Source: Parietichytrium sp. I65-24A (Eukaryota > Sar > Bigyra > Thraustochytrida > Thraustochytriidae). Taken from it: DNA of 64,000 nucleotides. Location of the stretch: NCBI GenBank assembly GCA_012862575.1, contig BLSF01000002.1:1116001-1180000 (forward strand), read 5' to 3'. Under the pieces are notes generated by a model. The model searched no databases and had not been told where the DNA came from. It worked only from the letters and a program-made list of their open reading frames with translations. The position numbers and the translations under genes were made by a program. Of this stretch, positions 23,426-46,370 are shown one piece after another; positions within the stretch are counted from its first letter, which is position 1, and each line of letters opens with the position of its first letter.

Positions 23426-26400
23426 TCAGAGAAAAAAACTATTTTCTACTGGTATAAAACTGGATATGTACGGGGCAACATAGCACACTGGTGTAGGTCT
23501 ACCACCTCGGTGACACACTGCACAATGCCAAATGGCAACCAAAGCAGCATCCTTGGATTGTGCTCTCTGCCTTTCCACTTCATCATGGGCTTCCTGCCAG
23601 GCTTTCAGAATATCCTCACTTGGCCTCCCAAGTCTCCTTGAGAGCTCCTTCGCAAGTCTTTGAAACTCGGGACCGAGCTTCCTGAGCTTGAGGATCCCTT
23701 CCTCACTATTGAGATTCATCTCATCAACGATATCATTTATGTGTTTGAGAGCGTCTCTGTCGATATTCGCAAAAGGTGATGGGGGTTCTAAGTCATCGAC
23801 TAACTCCTTCGCTTGACTTTGCAGCGCAGACTCTGGTTCCTTCTCTTGACAGACGGTGCTGTGTTTCGTATTGATTCTTGTTGGGGGATGTGGCGGTAAA
23901 AATTGTGGAGGTGCAGCTTTCTGGGCTGCGCACAACGGTGGGGTGACTGGATCGAGTGATTCCCCATCTGGATCCTGGCGATCATTTATGAGTCTTTCAA
24001 GTGCTGCTTCAAGATGGACACTGGTGGTACTTGGTACATGTGCCATACTAGATTTCCACTCTTTGGCTTTCTTGCGGTGCGCAAAAGTGCATAATGTGAT
24101 GACATCTCGAGCATTGCTGAAGTCTTTAATCTCTGACAAGCGTTTCGAGAGGTCACGGAGCAATTCGTCGGGAATTTCCAGAGGAACGTCTTCCTCTTTG
24201 TGCCATAGCTTGATGAGCTCTAGTATCGCGTCCACGTCGAAGTCATGGAAGTCGACACGTTCGGTGAAGCGGGATCCCAACCCAGGATTGGTTTGAAGCA
24301 TTCTTTTGATGGGAACTGCGTACCCAGCCAGAATCACGAGGATTTTATTCTGGTACTTTGGATCGGTGAGAGCGCCACAGAGCTCGTCAAGCACCTCAGT
24401 CATGAAAGATCCACCGCGGCTGGGATCGAGCTGATAAGCCTCATCGATGAAGAGTACTTCTCCTCGACACATGTCAAGGATTTCACGGGTTTTTTGGCCA
24501 GCTTGGCCAACGAAACCCGTAAGAAAATCAGATGCAGAATGAACATGCACTTTGTCACCTGCGAGCAAGCCAAGAGTGTGGTACATCTTTCCCATCAACT
24601 TTGCCACTGTGGTTTTTCCAGTCCCAGGGTTCCCGGTGAAGAGATAGTTGAAGCCTGCTTCTTTTAATGGTGACTTTCCGGCGGCCTTGGACATCAAAAT
24701 AAGGTTGCGCTTTTCGTTGAGATTTTCTCGCACCCCCTGAAGCCCAATAAGACCATCAAATAACTCGTCGAGGGTCTGTTCGTTGAGGGCATCGCCGGTG
24801 TGTCCAAAGTCTTCTGGCGTCAGGTAGCTAGAACTGGCATCTCGGGTCTGTTTCTGTTGTATTGCCTCGGAAAGCAACGTATCCACGGCGCCGCCGTTTC
24901 CAAAGTGTGGCTTCGCCCTGGCCCTAGCTAGCATTCGAACCGCTCTTTTGGCTGTGGCTATGGATACCTCGAAATCTTGGGCCTTTGCTTTCATCAGTAG
25001 AAGCTTGACAAGCTCTGCATCATTAAAGTCTGGGAAGTAAAACGCAATTTCGAGCTGGAATCGCCTTGACAGCCCTGGGTTGCTATGCTTCAGCATTTGG
25101 CGCATCTCGTCTTCATATCCGAGAAGTATCACTGCACGGTCATCACCCGGCCGAGCTTGGATTTGTTCTACGAGGGTGTCGATAACTGCCTGCCCATAGA
25201 GGTCTCCTCCACCGCTCATGCCATTGTAATTGCAAAGAGAGTAGGCTTCGTCAATGACGAGGACACAGCCTTCTGAGGCACGAAGAATGCTTCGAGTTGT
25301 GTTTTCGGATTCCCCAAGAACTTCGCCCTTGAAATCGGAAGCACATTTCATGACGACTTCTCCTTTCGATAGCAGACCAAGTTCTGCAAGCAATTTACCG
25401 TAGATCTTCGCAACTGTAGTCTTGCCAGTACCTGGATTTCCAAGAAAGATTCTGTTCAGCACCACCTCTTGCAGTTTCTTGCCCTCCTTTTCGCGCTGGG
25501 CATTGTCAACTACCATTCGCATCAGCTGATCAATCTTTTCCTTCACTGGTTGCAAACCAAGCATTTTCTGAAGGTCTTTGTATGTCGAAGTTTTTTGCAT
25601 TCGTTGCAAGCTGGGCTCCGGACCCAAGAGATCGCTTCTGACGAATTGAAACACGTTCTTCTTGCTCTCATCGGGATCGTGTCTAAGTCGCTCTGCCTGG
25701 CGCTTCCGTACTTCATCAAAGTAGGTTCTAACAGCTCGTGCGTTACCAAAACCGGGACGACCGGCGCGTCGGGCCAGGCGTTCCATTGCAATCCTGGCAC
25801 TATTTGAGTCACAGGTGAAGGGAGTTTTTCGAGGTGTCGACTTCTTGGAGGCTGCAGGTTGACTCTCTTCCTCCTCCTTTTCCTGCTTCAAGTATGTCAG
25901 CGAGCCGCTCTGGTTGTAGCTGAAATTTTGGTATGGAGAGGGCGGTGCCGTGTACAAGTTGTTGTATGTGCCTCTATTGTAGTTGGGTTGCAGGGAACTC
26001 TGATTCTTGCTTGGCGTCGATGAGGTCGTAACATCCTGGTTCTCAAGGAGCCCCTTAAAAATCAAGCCGAGCTCCGCCGCGGTGTAATCCTCGAATATGA
26101 AGCGAACTGGGAAACGAGATGGCAATCCTTCGTTGTGCTCAAAGAGACGTTCCATGTCCTTTTTATACCCAGCAAAGATCCACACTAGCTTCCCAAACTT
26201 GGTGTCCAGGCTCTCAGCAAAGGGCAATATGTGATCGAGAATTTTTTTGCCTTGGGCATCAGAACCAAGCTGGTACGCTTCATCGACGAAAATAACGCCA
26301 CCACCAGCCTTCTTGACCTTTTCAAGCTCTGCATCAAGATGTTTCACCCCCTCGTTGATAAGTGAGGCTGCTGTGAGCTCCACCGATCTTGCTTTTGCGG

Positions 26401-29400
26401 GAAGTACTTTGAGCTCACGAAGAAAGGCGCTGTAGTGTCGGGCTATGGTTGTCTTTCCGGTCCCTGGGTTGCCTTCAAACCGCACGTTGTAGCTCGATAA
26501 CCCACTGTCACCTTGCAATTTTGCAAGCGTGATTTGGCGGTACTGAGCAATCATGTCTTTTTTCACTGCCTGCAGGCCAATCATTTTAAGAACTTCTTGC
26601 ATGATTGGAGGGGCATCGGGATCCTTCGTCAAGATCTGTCTCCACTCATTGTTGAGACCTGTGTTCGGATCCGTTGACCCTTCTTCCTTGTCAGCAAAGT
26701 TTTCAATGGATATCACGGCTGCGATTCGCTGCCGAGCTTTGTTCGTCGGGAACTGCGAAATGGGAGTAGTACTATCAAGAAAACGCTCAAGAGTCTCAGC
26801 TGTGGTTTTGGCGAGTGCTGGGAAATCCGTCGCGAGACTTTCAAACGACGCCCAGCAATGCAGCGCAGTCTCTGTTGACGTCACAGGGCCCTGGAACTCG
26901 ATTGGCTCAGATGAGGGGCTTCCAAGCTCGAGACCGATAAGAGAATGAAGAGCACGCGTGGTCCTTTCATTCACCCCTTTGACAAGATCAAGTTTGTCAG
27001 AGGCCTCCAAAACGTCCCCCCGTTTGAAGCATTCCAGGGCTTTCATAAAATTTACATTCGACTCAAAAGAGTTATTCTCAAGACCAACTGAGCCTATCGT
27101 CTCCTTGGATGAAGCAGGACTGAAAGAAGGTTTTGTGACACTTGCCCTCTTTGTCTGCCCTACCTCTACCTCCTTGGCGAGTTCGCAAGGGGGGTTAGAA
27201 CTCTCGTTTTCTACACCGCCTTTGTCTTCTGAAGGCGCGTGCTCAGAAGAAGGTCGAGTCTTCTGTTCTAGTTGAACAAGCGTGCGAGGAGGGTTCACCT
27301 CCTTCTTGTCAACCGTAGCCTTCTCAGTCTTCGCCTTACCTGCAGGCATCTCTAATACGCTCTCTTCTGTCAAACTCTCTCGTGCTGTAAGATGTCTGGC
27401 CAACTCTCGTTCCTCTGCCTTGGCAATCTTGTCACAGTGGCGGCATTTTGTTGACCGGCCTTGACGACATTCCCCCTTCAAAAGATGACCACGAGGACAC
27501 TTCCATGTGGCCAGCTTCTTGCAGATCGGCTTCTCGTCGCTACATTTCCGCAAACAAAAGTGGCCATAGCCGCAGACATCGCGAACCTTTTCCTTACAGA
27601 GACCCCCCCGTAAGTGAACCATTTCCTTCTGTAGGGGAGGATGGCAATTTAAAGGACACGGATGACCACAAGAGAGTTTTTCATTACATTTCTCTTTGCA
27701 ACCACCGCAAGGAACTAGCTCTTCAAAATCCTCCGCGGAACGAATATTTTGCACAGATTTGTGCGTTTCACACTTGGCGGGGAAATGGTCTAAAAGGAAT
27801 TTATCCCCTTGCGCTCTCTCTCGTAAATTTCTCCACACCTTGCTCCCGGACGACAAGGTGTCGAAGTTGCCCACCAAAAACATTCCCTCCCGTGCACGAG
27901 AGAGAAGCACGTTGATTCGTTCTGCCTGCGCAATAAACCCGATTCCACCTCGTCCAGAGCGAACAAGGCTCGCCACAATGATGTTTGACTCCTCGCCTTG
28001 GTAGTTGTCGATCGTGGCGACACGAAACGTACCACCTCCGGTTGATTGTACAGGCATCTGACGGCTCGTCACCACTTCACCTGTCTCCTGGGCCCGGGCA
28101 AGATCTGCACTGTCAAGGTCACCAATGTCCGCTTTGATTTCACGTCGTGCCAGCTCCTCAAGGATTAGTGCCAGTTGTCCGACGTATGGTGTGAGGATTG
28201 TGATGTCTTCGTGTTTGTGTTGTCCTTGGCTCACGAGGTGATTCGCAATCGCAACGACAAGGCGCGCCTCGAAGGTGTTTTGTTTCGTTCGGCTCCCCAC
28301 CACTTCCAGCTCTTCGGAGTTGTCCTCAGGGTTCTGGTGGGTTACAAACACGACATTCATCGTCACTCCAACAACGTTTGGTCGCCCTTTAGTTGTGCTG
28401 GCATCTTCGATGGACCGGTACAATCCCATTTTTCGAATGATGTTCGAAATTTCTGGTCGCATGCGGTGCTGCACATTCAGGCACACAACGGGAAATTTCC
28501 CGATTACCAGGCGCTCAAATAGGCTCACATTCAAATCGAAGCCCTTCCCAGAGGCTTTATCCAAATCGTATTTGGAAACTTTAGGGCGCAATTGTTTGTG
28601 ATCGCCAATGAGGATGAGCTGCCTGGTATCTTTGGACAGGTTTACCAGAACATGGGCTTCAAGGATCTCCCCAGCTTCCTCCACAAGAATCACGGACGGT
28701 TTCAGCAGCCCACGGAGGTTTGCAGCACCCACTGTTGTGCATCCAATTATTTGGGCGTTTTGAAGCGCCTTACATTGAATATGGCGTCGCAAAGTTGCCG
28801 AATATTTGCGATACTGTCCGATCTCCCCCATGATTCGAAGGAATTCTGTTCTTTTTGGAAGTGTCCATTCTTCATTCCATCTGGCGCGTTCCGCATTGCG
28901 CTCTTTCTTGTTGAGGCACCAGATACCTTTCTGGTCGAACTCATCTCCTTTGAACACCCCGCGGTCTTTGTCATCACACCATCGTTCCCACAAGTACCCC
29001 TCCGTGATGGCCTTCCCACGACTGCCAACCTTTTGAAAGTGGTCATTTCCCGAATACGGAACACGAAGTTGTTCCCATTCGTCGTGATATTCCTCAAAGA
29101 GCCATTTAGATACAGTCCGTACCCACCAAGAGCCGCCCTTTCCCCACTGACTACGATTCAGATCGTCCCGGACCTGTTTCAACTTCTGTGTGAGCGCTTC
29201 TAGTTCTGTTTTAATTGCCCACTCTGCACTCTTATCTGCAGGGCTGCGGATGGCAGTTGCAACCTCTCGCAACGTACGATCCTGAAGATCGTTGTGAATC
29301 TTGGACGATCCACCAGCTCGGATGATAACTTCTTTTGAGACCCCACTCTTGATCAGATCAAGGAGAAACGAGTCGAGTGCGTGGTTGGTATAGCAGAGAC

Positions 29401-31213
29401 ATAGGATCCTGAGAGGCATTATGTCACCTGTGCAGTATCGTTTTTCCATTTTAAGCATGGCTTTCACCATTTGCACACCCACATACGTTTTCCCAGTCCC
29501 AGGTGGTCCTTGAACAAGCACCACACTCCGCGTGAGGATTCTTTCGAGAGCGCGCTCCTGCTTTGGGTCTGTTTCGACAGCCTTCCGAATACTTGATGGG
29601 AGACGTGGAAAGGACGTGTGCGCAAGTTCCCCCCTGGGGACCAAAGTATCCTTGAGATCCACGAGCGCCTCGCTGAGCTCAATGTCGTCCATTCCTTTCA
29701 ATGCTCGTAACACAGGCTCGACATCAAACATTCCCACGCTTGAACAAAATAGAACTTCCGGTCGTCGTATCCCCTTCTTCTCCATCTCTACGCGATCCAA
29801 CAGGTGTGAAATTGCAGCCAAACTTTGTGGGGTGAACCAAACTCCAATCTGTATCTCTAGTTGATCGTCTGCGATCATGCCTCTACGTTCAACAACAGTT
29901 CCTAAGGCTGTGATCTTGCTGACGCAGACCTCAGACTTTGAATTCTTTGTTGTTGCCAACATGACGAGCGAGTTTTTGGGGAGGACACGGCGTCCAGGGC
30001 CATTCTCGAAAAACTCCTGGCGTTCTTCACGTTTCATCTTTTTCAGCCTTCTAGCGAGTCCTCGTGGCATGGCGATCCGCACTACAACATGCGGTAGAGG
30101 CTCAAGTCCCAGTCCCATGAATCTGACACCTTCGAAAGTCCGACGCCGCTCCTCGCTGGCTTTTGACATCTCAGCTTGCAGCTCCTCTTTGACGGTACCA
30201 ATGAAATCCTCTCTCAACAAACGAAATTGACGATCAATCGTTGCAAGCTTTGGACATGAAACATATTCAGACCCTTCTCCACACTTTAACGGGAAAGGAA
30301 GATAGGGATCATCCTGAGAAAGAAGCTCCTTGCAAGTAGGGAAAATTTCCACATCTCGGAAGTTCTCTTTGTCGTTGTCATGTTCCCTACGTCCTGGAGG
30401 AATTGCCGACGAGAGCTTGGTTGATTCCAACGAGCGAGGTGCTTCTTGAGTTCCTCTGGCTTCAATGATTCCAATCATAGATCCCAAATTATGCGCAATC
30501 TTTGCTGCTCCTCGTTCAAAACTCTGTTGTAAAAACTCGCATAGGCGTCGAGTTTCAACACTCTCCCGAACAGTCTTCCCGTGCTCTTCGGACATTACCA
30601 GGCGCAAAAGAAACCACCCGACAGCGGCATGAAAGCCGTTCCCCCCTTTTTGGATCGAACTCAACAGCTCCTTCTGGCAAAGTTCAAACACAGTCCAGAA
30701 ACAAGCTAGAGTGCGGGTTTCAAAGATGCCGAACTTCATGGATTCTCCCCCAAGGCATTGCAGCAATTCAAAGATTTCGTGTACATTTGGCCACAGCAGG
30801 CGAATTGCCTGTCGCAAAACTTTGAGCAGCTCCTCATCAAGCTTGACGGCAAGAGCTTCTGGTGAATCTTCACCCAGTTCCACCAACTTGTCAAGAAAAC
30901 GTCGTGCATCTTCAGGATTGTGGAGCTTCTCGTCCTCGCATCGCAGTTTTTCCAGCCACGACTTCCTCGGGTTTTTTTGGGGGTCAGTTCTTCCCTTTAT
31001 TTTGTGAGGCCTATCCTCTAGCGTCTTCGTGCCTTTCCAAACTCTCCCGGAATGATTGCCACCCCCTTTTTTGTTTCCGGGCCCACCACCTTCCTGCTTG
31101 CTCTTCTTTCCCTCAGCAACCTTGCTGCGTGCAACCCCTGGTCCTTTGCCCTTCATGCTGTTGGGTGCACTTCCACCATGTCGACCCTGCCCAGATCCCT
31201 TCTTCGAGCTCAT
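23426..31213 (-). CDS. Helicase / NF-X1 zinc-finger / triple AAA+ fusion protein (ZNFX1-like N-half, CbbX/SpoVK-like C-half)
   Basis: A 2,595-residue protein without introns. A basic Gly/Lys-rich N-terminus is followed by a superfamily-1 (UPF1/ZNFX1-type) helicase. Its motifs are Walker A GPPGTGKT at 569-576, motif II VEEAGE near 844, GDHKQLRP near 870-877, QHRMRPE near 915 and VLLSRARE near 1102-1109. A Cys/His-rich NF-X1-like region follows at ~1168-1262 (CGGCKEKC, CGHPCPLNCH, CGYGHFCLRKC). After a linker come three AAA+ modules of the CbbX/SpoVK type, each with GNPGTGKTT (1581-, 1925- and 2194-) and Walker B VDEAY/IDEAY. Animal ZNFX1 senses viral dsRNA and supports small-RNA inheritance; CbbX-type AAA+ proteins remodel complexes. 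The fusion suggests an RNA-surveillance or defence remodeller, which is inference. The N-terminal Met at 31213 is the first ATG. Confidence 0.93.
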   Translation of the reverse strand: MSSKKGSGQGRHGGSAPNSMKGKGPGVARSKVAEGKKSKQEGGGPGNKKGGGNHSGRVWKGTKTLEDRPHKIKGRTDPQKNPRKSWLEKLRCEDEKLHNPEDARRFLDKLVELGEDSPEALAVKLDEELLKVLRQAIRLLWPNVHEIFELLQCLGGESMKFGIFETRTLACFWTVFELCQKELLSSIQKGGNGFHAAVGWFLLRLVMSEEHGKTVRESVETRRLCEFLQQSFERGAAKIAHNLGSMIGIIEARGTQEAPRSLESTKLSSAIPPGRREHDNDKENFRDVEIFPTCKELLSQDDPYLPFPLKCGEGSEYVSCPKLATIDRQFRLLREDFIGTVKEELQAEMSKASEERRRTFEGVRFMGLGLEPLPHVVVRIAMPRGLARRLKKMKREERQEFFENGPGRRVLPKNSLVMLATTKNSKSEVCVSKITALGTVVERRGMIADDQLEIQIGVWFTPQSLAAISHLLDRVEMEKKGIRRPEVLFCSSVGMFDVEPVLRALKGMDDIELSEALVDLKDTLVPRGELAHTSFPRLPSSIRKAVETDPKQERALERILTRSVVLVQGPPGTGKTYVGVQMVKAMLKMEKRYCTGDIMPLRILCLCYTNHALDSFLLDLIKSGVSKEVIIRAGGSSKIHNDLQDRTLREVATAIRSPADKSAEWAIKTELEALTQKLKQVRDDLNRSQWGKGGSWWVRTVSKWLFEEYHDEWEQLRVPYSGNDHFQKVGSRGKAITEGYLWERWCDDKDRGVFKGDEFDQKGIWCLNKKERNAERARWNEEWTLPKRTEFLRIMGEIGQYRKYSATLRRHIQCKALQNAQIIGCTTVGAANLRGLLKPSVILVEEAGEILEAHVLVNLSKDTRQLILIGDHKQLRPKVSKYDLDKASGKGFDLNVSLFERLVIGKFPVVCLNVQHRMRPEISNIIRKMGLYRSIEDASTTKGRPNVVGVTMNVVFVTHQNPEDNSEELEVVGSRTKQNTFEARLVVAIANHLVSQGQHKHEDITILTPYVGQLALILEELARREIKADIGDLDSADLARAQETGEVVTSRQMPVQSTGGGTFRVATIDNYQGEESNIIVASLVRSGRGGIGFIAQAERINVLLSRAREGMFLVGNFDTLSSGSKVWRNLRERAQGDKFLLDHFPAKCETHKSVQNIRSAEDFEELVPCGGCKEKCNEKLSCGHPCPLNCHPPLQKEMVHLRGGLCKEKVRDVCGYGHFCLRKCSDEKPICKKLATWKCPRGHLLKGECRQGRSTKCRHCDKIAKAEERELARHLTARESLTEESVLEMPAGKAKTEKATVDKKEVNPPRTLVQLEQKTRPSSEHAPSEDKGGVENESSNPPCELAKEVEVGQTKRASVTKPSFSPASSKETIGSVGLENNSFESNVNFMKALECFKRGDVLEASDKLDLVKGVNERTTRALHSLIGLELGSPSSEPIEFQGPVTSTETALHCWASFESLATDFPALAKTTAETLERFLDSTTPISQFPTNKARQRIAAVISIENFADKEEGSTDPNTGLNNEWRQILTKDPDAPPIMQEVLKMIGLQAVKKDMIAQYRQITLAKLQGDSGLSSYNVRFEGNPGTGKTTIARHYSAFLRELKVLPAKARSVELTAASLINEGVKHLDAELEKVKKAGGGVIFVDEAYQLGSDAQGKKILDHILPFAESLDTKFGKLVWIFAGYKKDMERLFEHNEGLPSRFPVRFIFEDYTAAELGLIFKGLLENQDVTTSSTPSKNQSSLQPNYNRGTYNNLYTAPPSPYQNFSYNQSGSLTYLKQEKEEEESQPAASKKSTPRKTPFTCDSNSARIAMERLARRAGRPGFGNARAVRTYFDEVRKRQAERLRHDPDESKKNVFQFVRSDLLGPEPSLQRMQKTSTYKDLQKMLGLQPVKEKIDQLMRMVVDNAQREKEGKKLQEVVLNRIFLGNPGTGKTTVAKIYGKLLAELGLLSKGEVVMKCASDFKGEVLGESENTTRSILRASEGCVLVIDEAYSLCNYNGMSGGGDLYGQAVIDTLVEQIQARPGDDRAVILLGYEDEMRQMLKHSNPGLSRRFQLEIAFYFPDFNDAELVKLLLMKAKAQDFEVSIATAKRAVRMLARARAKPHFGNGGAVDTLLSEAIQQKQTRDASSSYLTPEDFGHTGDALNEQTLDELFDGLIGLQGVRENLNEKRNLILMSKAAGKSPLKEAGFNYLFTGNPGTGKTTVAKLMGKMYHTLGLLAGDKVHVHSASDFLTGFVGQAGQKTREILDMCRGEVLFIDEAYQLDPSRGGSFMTEVLDELCGALTDPKYQNKILVILAGYAVPIKRMLQTNPGLGSRFTERVDFHDFDVDAILELIKLWHKEEDVPLEIPDELLRDLSKRLSEIKDFSNARDVITLCTFAHRKKAKEWKSSMAHVPSTTSVHLEAALERLINDRQDPDGESLDPVTPPLCAAQKAAPPQFLPPHPPTRINTKHSTVCQEKEPESALQSQAKELVDDLEPPSPFANIDRDALKHINDIVDEMNLNSEEGILKLRKLGPEFQRLAKELSRRLGRPSEDILKAWQEAHDEVERQRAQSKDAALVAIWHCAVCHRGGRPTPVCYVAPYISSFIPVENSFFL

Positions 31214-44809: not shown

Positions 44810-46024
44810 TTAGGAGTAGAATTGGTACTCTGTGTCGGATTTGTTGGTATGAACCTTGTAACCCTCTTCAAAGTCTTTTGGGAGGATGACATATCGGTTG
44901 TTTCTGACAGCCTGCATACCGGCCTCAAGGCAGATGGCAGAAATCTCGGCTGCCGAGATTTTCTCCGGACGGTTAACAAAGTCTTCGAGGTCCACCTCGT
45001 CACTAAGATTCATCTTGGACGTACACGCCTGGAAAATGAGGCGCTTCTGGCGTCGATCAGGATTTGGGAACTCGATCTTACGATCAAGACGGCCTGGACG
45101 GAGCAACGCAGGGTCCAGTGTATCAGCGCGATTGGTTGCCATGATGACCTTAATGTTTGTTGTTTGATCGAACCCATCCATTTGATTCAATAGCTCCAGC
45201 AGGATACGCTGTACTTCACGATCAGCACCAGTCTGCGAGTCAAAACGTTTCGTTCCGATCGCGTCAATCTCATCAATGAAGACGATGGCAGGAGAGTTCT
45301 CGCGGGCGAGCCTGAAAACATCACGAACCATGCGCGGCCCTTCTCCGAGATATTTCTGAACAAACTCTGAGCCGACCATCTTAATGAAGGACGCCGTGGT
45401 GGCATTCGCAACAGCTTTAGCCATCATGGTCTTTCCGGTCCCTGGTGGGCCGTACAGAAGAACACCCCTCGGAGGGTCGATTCCGATTTGCTTGTACAGA
45501 TCGAAGTGTGTCAACGGCAGCTCCACGGCTTCGCGCACCTCCTGCTTTTGCACGTCCATTCCACCGATATCTTCATAGCGTACGTCAGGCTTTTCGGTGG
45601 CCATCATGTTCTGAATGGAGGAGTCCGCCTCAGGTGGCAGGGCCTCCACCACCGCATGCGAGTGTCTGTGCAACGCCGTAGACGAGTTGGGCTTGAGCTG
45701 CTCCCTGTCCAGCGTGGACAAAATCCTCACATAATATGTCGACCCTGCCGTGGAGCTGACGATACCGTGATGCTCATCGATGAGCTCAATGAACTGCCCA
45801 ATCACCAGCGGCACACTCTGGATCCTGCGCACTTCCTCCTTGGCCCGCAGCATCTCCCTCTTCAAATTCTTCATCTCATCCTTGATGTACGACTCCTGGA
45901 TCTCCGTGAACTCCAGCAGCTGCTCCAGCTGCTTCATACGCTTGTAAAGGTCAGACTCCACCTTTCCCCCATGCGCACCTCCTCCTCCGTCCAACTCCAT
46001 CGCCGACACTGCTGCGCTCGCCAT
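44810..46024 (-). CDS. RPT3: 26S proteasome regulatory ATPase RPT3 (PSMC4)
   Basis: This 404-residue AAA+ ATPase is an almost full-length match to RPT3. The order is coiled coil ([27 protein letters not shown] as two segments, residues ~27-70), OB domain ([21 protein letters not shown]), then the AAA core. The core has [20 protein letters not shown], Walker A GPPGTGKT at 190-197, Walker [15 protein letters not shown] and the SRH ending in [15 protein letters not shown]. The GGMD-QKQE-LTHF wording separates RPT3 from the other five RPT subunits. The C-terminus YQFYS fits the HbYX-related end (canonical FYK, here FYS) that docks in the 20S alpha ring; the terminal residue differs from usual. 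It unfolds substrates in the 19S base. The ATG at 46024 is chosen; the ATG-less upstream frame is a translated CT/GA repeat. Confidence 0.97.
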
Positions 46025-46053
46025 CCTCCCCGCCCTTCTCGCCGTTACCCCAA

Positions 46054-46055
<2 letters not shown>

Positions 46056-46085
<30 letters not shown>
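46056..46085. repeat. CT/GA dinucleotide tract
   Basis: An unbroken CT run 32-61 bp upstream of the RPT3 ATG, reading as GA on the gene strand. A second CT-rich run lies at about 46144-46172. Confidence 0.95.
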
Positions 46086-46370
46086 GAGACCCACACCAAG
46101 CAGCGATTCTGCGATTCACACCGCGCACCCCTCTCTGCTCTCTCTCACACTCTCTCTCTCTCTCTCTCTGTGTGTCTTCTCTGGTCTCCGTCTCGTGTTT
46201 GTGAGTGTGTGTTGTTGGGTTTGGAGTGTTTCCTTTGCTCTTTCTTTTCTTCCTCTGTGTTGTTGAATTGATTATGTTTGGCTTCCTTTGACGTTCGTTC
46301 AACTTCGCCCGGCGGCCGGGGTGCAGGGTCGCTTGGAACAACGACCTGTTCATGAACGGTGAGCTGCTCG

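Follow-up and report, generated by a model that had tools for sequence, protein, structure and literature searches.

A single chain joining a ZNFX1-type helicase to three CbbX/SpoVK-type AAA+ modules in Parietichytrium sp. I65-24A, a candidate RNA-activated remodeller

The window analysed here, a stretch of 64 kb of DNA from Parietichytrium sp. I65-24A, holds on its minus strand a gene (23426..31213; ATG at 31213, stop codon ending at 23426) that reads as a single exon for a protein of 2595 amino acids, and it raises the question of whether one chain really unites an RNA helicase with a series of AAA+ modules and, if so, what such a chain would do. An earlier note on this DNA had described one uninterrupted frame with Walker A sites at residues 569-576, 1581-1588, 1925-1932, and 2194-2201. 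Translation and a motif scan place all four at exactly these positions, and the frame, which had been given without a strand, can now be assigned to the minus one. Its stop-free stretch, of 2620 codons, is the longest in the window (the runner-up has 1750), and the other five frames across 23426-31213 are interrupted by 58 to 143 stops each (2.2-5.5%).

Judged from its sequence, the first half of the protein is an SF1 helicase of the type of ZNFX1, an antiviral protein in humans, as had been proposed. Pfam recognises helicase domain 1 (AAA_11) at residues 549-879 (28577..29569, minus strand), which includes the Walker A site at 569-576, and helicase domain 2 (AAA_12) at residues 894-1116 (27866..28534, minus strand). 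The top PDB match of residues 300-1270 is ZNFX1 (9q9z, 2.1e-83), whereas Upf1-type chains reach 1.5e-27 and weaker in a search with the whole protein, and a profile built from this protein and its paralogue on C12 gives 3.9e-104 for 9q9z against 3e-41 for Upf1. The alignment with 9q9z extends beyond the SF1 core on both sides, over a pre-helicase signature (residues 277-366; 30116..30385, minus strand; PT..E....P.L ... FRLLREDF) with its FRLLREDF segment and over the finger region, so that the likeness to ZNFX1 comprises signature, core, and an NF-X1-like finger region in identical order. The N-terminal armadillo-type fold is among the features of the ZNFX1 family; here, residues 1-545 contain no Pfam domain above cut-off, and residues 85-545 searched alone have 9q9z as their sole PDB match at E values up to 10, a weak one (E 0.03).

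Downstream of the helicase lies a Cys/His-rich region (residues 1169-1260; 27434..27709, minus strand) that aligns with the ZNFX1 finger region in 9q9z. The protein has two NF-X1-type cores (C-x1-6-H-x-C-x3-C), at residues 1182 and 1214; in 2000 shuffled versions of it the average was 0.004. Pfam zf-NF-X1 gave no match in the protein or the genome, although this 19-position model was also silent in all 14 prokaryote control genomes. The Cys/His-rich region announced between the two halves is thus present and NF-X1-like by alignment, but reduced to two cores. The C-terminal RZ finger of ZNFX1 is its E3 part in animals; searches of this gene detected no RZ finger, the fingers are followed by the triple AAA+ cassette, and the only RZ match of the genome belongs to another gene, on C3. 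ZNFX1 itself is described with six fingers in PMC11959080, against the two cores seen here.

The second half of the chain holds three AAA+ modules of a bacterial kind, and their assignment to the CbbX/SpoVK type stands, since every module taken singly has SpoVK as its best profile match, followed by CbbX and EccA (TIGR02880, TIGR02881, and TIGR03922 among the profiles of this group). Module 1 (residues 1540-1860; 25634..26596, minus strand) carries Walker A at 1581-1588, DEAY at 1644, R1700, and the sensor-2 arginine R1826; module 2 (residues 1879-2126; 24836..25579, minus strand) carries Walker A at 1925-1932, DEAY at 1988, and R2051; and module 3 (residues 2150-2400; 24014..24766, minus strand) carries Walker A at 2194-2201, DEAY at 2257, R2315, and the sensor-2 arginine R2369. 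The TIGR02881 scores of modules 1, 2, and 3 are 139.6, 173.1, and 146.1 bits, the single-protein cut-off being 422.95, and the whole-chain SpoVK score of 443.3 is a sum over three stretches. AAA_lid_6 exceeds its cut-off in modules 1 and 2 and reaches 14.6 bits, against a cut-off of 24.3, in module 3. In a PDB search the AAA half matches the CbbX structures 3zuh/3syk at 3e-31. Structure prediction of the trio from a 14-sequence alignment gave three AAA+ folds (pLDDT 76), with very low confidence in the lid insert of module 1 (residues 1734-1802), which is predicted to be disordered; one predicted module superposes on CbbX 3syk with a TM of 0.75 by target and an rmsd of 4.0, while the arrangement of the modules in the prediction is unreliable (pTM 0.38). 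The top Foldseek ranks, two-module alignments to Cdc48/p97-type proteins with a TM of at most 0.38 and an rmsd of 23-28 Å, were not read as a shared arrangement. In PADLOC the AAA half weakly resembles IetA (4e-11) and TRIP13 (7e-10), which was put down to general AAA+ likeness.

In CbbX and other AAA+ proteins the pore loop grips the substrate, and the arginine finger and sensor 2 sense the nucleotide. All three modules retain Walker A, Walker B, and the arginine-finger position, both in the window protein and in its paralogue on C42; the earlier note had named, as grounds for abandoning its reading, one Walker A degenerating with its neighbours in all relatives, and the core motifs are kept in both proteins. 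On sequence, all three modules therefore look capable of binding and hydrolysing ATP. The pore loop, in contrast, is lost in module 1, and module 2 has V1965 in place of the aromatic residue and G2108 at the sensor-2 position, so that only module 3 keeps an aromatic (F2234), a trend shared by C42, whose modules 1, 2, and 3 have none, K, and Y, respectively. The term triple remodeller used before is accordingly too generous for a chain in which two of three modules lack the pore-loop aromatic. Unlike CbbX, SpoVK, and EccA, which the modules resemble in fold and motifs, this chain has three copies in series, an aromatic pore loop in one of them, and a helicase as its head.

Searches of the organism's own genome (42.5 Mb in 172 contigs) found a single copy of the whole fusion protein. 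The next matches are one gene for each half, on C42 (356 bits, AAA half) and on C12 (288 bits, helicase half), and no other gene scores above 42.8 bits. The C12 gene (L030:2652-6962; 1436 amino acids as read) encodes a ZNFX1-type protein (9q9z, 1.7e-64) without AAA modules, which has one NF-X1 core and a Cys-rich tail. By eye this tail looks RING/IBR-like, an assignment that neither Pfam nor a PDB search confirmed, the best PDB match being TFIIE (E 0.066). The C42 gene (L029:1638-6491; 1617 amino acids from a TTG start) encodes ankyrin repeats and three CbbX modules without a helicase. In its module 1, Walker A and Walker B are separated by some 60-70 additional residues, which might form a small beta-barrel that, to the eye alone, recalls Tudor/SH3 folds. 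The three AAA_lid_6 matches of the genome are confined to the window gene and C42, and the ten AAA_12 matches comprise the window gene, C12, and eight other loci. With C12 and C42 each holding one half alone, the window gene combines two families whose members also occur on their own. This suggests that the part through which the helicase would normally act was swapped for a motor.

How far the triple as such is shared with C42 differs between modules. For module 2 the signal of common ancestry is clear (45%, 211 bits); module 3 scores 124 bits against its C42 counterpart, almost level with the 126 that it scores against C42 module 2; and module 1 scores 90 bits, below SpoVK at 107. These pairwise scores support a triple shared with C42 for module 2 and roughly for module 3, but not for module 1. 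A module tree did pair the two module 1 copies (SH-aLRT 93), a grouping flagged as long branches meeting, and did not resolve the source of the eukaryotic modules.

A scan for the AAA half in bacteria yielded at least 528 relatives from at least 594 matching stretches, of which the best 80 loci (L053-L132, with flanks of up to 6 kb) were kept, a choice that biases the sample toward proteins with several modules. Counted by a strict motif, three CbbX modules are present in 15 of these, two in 57, and one in eight, so that 72/80 have two or three; the counts are minima, because the strict motif misses divergent modules. The cassettes, among them those of Streptomyces beta-helix proteins, thus have modules in series as in the window protein, and the heads placed before them vary. 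Profile scans of the head region in 10 of the 80 loci found Sel1/TPR repeats in L053 and L107, a beta-helix in L069, and probable zinc ribbons in L072, L079, and L085 (below the Pfam cut-off) and L120 (just above it), where the window protein has a ZNFX1-type helicase. An additional AAA copy over cut-off lies within the part scanned as head in L072, L085, and L120; the heads of L055 and L104 gave only weak P-loop-type matches, and that of L091 none. These unrelated heads, in the ten loci scanned, make the cassette seem an exchangeable motor. Among 87 bacterial loci (the best 80 and seven plasmid loci), with 2154 frames in all, no ZNFX1-type helicase was found; the profile of the window protein and C12 gave one chance-level match, in L088 (E 0.004), whereas it scores other helicases of the thraustochytrid genome at 89.7 to 136.1 bits. 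Near the copy on one Streptomyces plasmid (L046) there is an eccC gene of type VII secretion. A plasmid tblastn search with the helicase returned 17 records, all weak, the best 15 of the 17 covering at most 35% of the query, and viral contigs scanned with the helicase region and with AAA and helicase alignments, whose patterns were few and short, contained no relative.

We tentatively favor, as a reading that falls somewhat short of probable, an RNA helicase of the ZNFX1 family that has, as its effector half, a remodelling cassette of three CbbX/SpoVK-type AAA+ modules activated by RNA. In PMC13270118, ZNFX1 is reported to be a helicase whose recognition of long single-stranded RNA depends on ATP and which drives ubiquitin-dependent assemblies; the same review presents two views of the fate of the RNA, both of which include higher-order ZNFX1 assemblies on it. 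By analogy, the helicase half of the window protein would bind and clamp long or aberrant RNA, using ATP, and the RNA-bound helicase would then position or switch on the AAA+ half, which may pull on RNA-bound protein and so dismantle a ribonucleoprotein particle. As the aromatic pore loop is kept in module 3 only, the grip on the substrate is probably there, and modules 1 and 2 may serve as a motor or a scaffold. Speculatively, a ring of six AAA modules could be built from two chains. The substrate, the RNA trigger, the coupling between the halves, and a role in surveillance or defence are matters that we only infer, and the two halves could also act independently.

The same missing residues lend themselves to a different function for the AAA+ half. 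Modules 1 and 2 without the pore-loop aromatic, and module 2 without the sensor-2 arginine, argue against ordinary threading by all modules, and the cassette might instead be a platform for oligomerisation, gated by ATP, on which chains bound to RNA are clustered, a form of quarantine in which no protein is threaded. Such an RNA-triggered scaffold, which we consider rather unlikely, would fit the higher-order assemblies or clusters that ZNFX1 is said to form on RNA (PMC13270118). Nevertheless, the retention of Walker A, Walker B, and the arginine finger in three of three modules, together with the aromatic of module 3 (F here, Y in C42), argues for a working motor.

A role in general RNA quality control or splicing, as for helicases of the Upf1, Sen1, or Aquarius kind, with an AAA+ tail and no link to defence, is in our judgment unlikely. 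The Upf1-like SF1 fold and the eight additional AAA_12 loci of the genome are compatible with it, but in the PDB searches the SF1 core lies far nearer to ZNFX1 than to Upf1, IGHMBP2, Sen1, or Aquarius, and the organism's other helicases, C12 excepted, stay at or below the 42.8 bits already mentioned.

The fusion itself might be an artefact, produced by a retained intron, by a mis-assembly, or by taking two adjacent genes for a single one. It would suit this that each half also occurs on its own in another gene of the genome; the gene was read from genomic DNA, and the linker between the halves (residues 1261-1540; 26594..27433, minus strand), which has no recognised domain and does not resemble the part of C42 that precedes its AAA modules, contains one GTRAG word, at codon 1292. 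However, even at the lowest stop rate of the other five frames, 280 codons would be stop-free by chance with a probability of only 0.0018, and GTRAG is absent from the lid insert of module 1. The codon score of the linker (-0.04 to 0.25 per codon) falls within the spread of the window's other genes, among which this score is a weak discriminator, and GC3 hardly changes (0.51 before the linker, 0.50 inside, 0.53 after). We therefore regard an artefact as very unlikely. The blocks with the lowest codon scores are those of the finger region (-0.09 and -0.08) and the C-terminal end (-0.14), the latter slightly below the lowest block (-0.12) of 14 comparison genes; this tail (residues 2401-2595; 23429..24013, minus strand), with a GC3 of 0.42, is without recognised domain or RZ finger. 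The fusion gene (0.51), C42 (0.53), and C12 (0.54) have a lower GC3 than almost all 14 comparison genes from the window (0.54-0.69). Elsewhere in the window, simple-sequence tracts lie in the 5' parts of frames at about 2,000-2,055 and 20,299 (V-D-C and V-G-L repeats) and at about 46,000-46,250 (R-E repeats), the last before a proteasome-ATPase-like gene.

Membership of the ZNFX1 family also brings to mind small-RNA silencing or inheritance, the field of worm ZNFX-1. This role appears highly improbable here, because no Argonaute was found: the Piwi domain had no match in the 42.5 Mb genome, by a search that rang in one of 14 control genomes. RdRP likewise had no match, in a weak search that rang in no control, and RNase III domains occur in three short frames only (271-330 amino acids). 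In the same genome, a gene on the plus strand of C3 (L135; 621500-631450) reads as an RNF213-like frame of more than 3300 amino acids with an RZ-type finger at residues 2777-2818 and an AAA region that gives a short match to RNF213 structures (E 2e-6). Finally, a Rubisco-activase-type function, suggested by the CbbX similarity, is hardly credible for modules that are fused to a helicase, match SpoVK better, and score 347.6 as a whole chain and at most 132.2 singly against a cbbX cut-off of 459.25.

Two known antimicrobial systems invite comparison. The helicase core matches MkoA of the bacterial anti-phage system Mokosh in PADLOC (2.9e-64), over residues 513-1128 only. Mokosh pairs this helicase with a phospholipase-D-type nuclease; no nuclease appears among the families listed for the window protein, in one scan the best 25 of 43. 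The AAA modules of RNF213 are dynein-like, and it is an E3 without a helicase. It resembles the window protein as an antimicrobial giant with AAA modules and zinc fingers in one chain, and PMC12075652 describes it as a giant AAA protein activated by ATP binding that has the RZ finger in common with ZNFX1. Each half of the window protein is of a known kind, and the joined form is absent from the open-access literature searched, in which no paper was found that names a ZNFX1/NFX1-type protein together with CbbX, CbxX, SpoVK, or stage V sporulation protein, or Mokosh together with ZNFX1. Fungal proteins annotated with this domain mix may exist, and the earlier note places related fusions in fungi and other protists. 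The name "NF-X1 finger and helicase" occurs in work on Aspergillus and on a wheat-Fusarium interaction, which shows a usage of the name and not a fusion.

Only in 2025-2026 was ZNFX1 described as a helicase that is activated by RNA and has a ubiquitin effector attached to it (PMC13270118). If ZNFX1 couples RNA sensing to a part that writes ubiquitin and clusters RNA, the window paralogue has an AAA+ remodeller in the place of that part. Carried further, to an exchange of effectors in which the Cys-rich tail, possibly a ubiquitin ligase, was retained by C12 and the remodeller is carried by its window paralogue, the comparison would put an RNA-triggered builder and an RNA-triggered dismantler of the same particles into one genome, which we hold to be quite unlikely. 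Were the same sensor to drive a remodelling motor, "RNA sensing" would become separable from "ubiquitin output", and each could be tested alone. On the side of the motor, the finding hints that CbbX-type cassettes are general motors with an exchangeable head for recognition, in bacteria and in this eukaryote.
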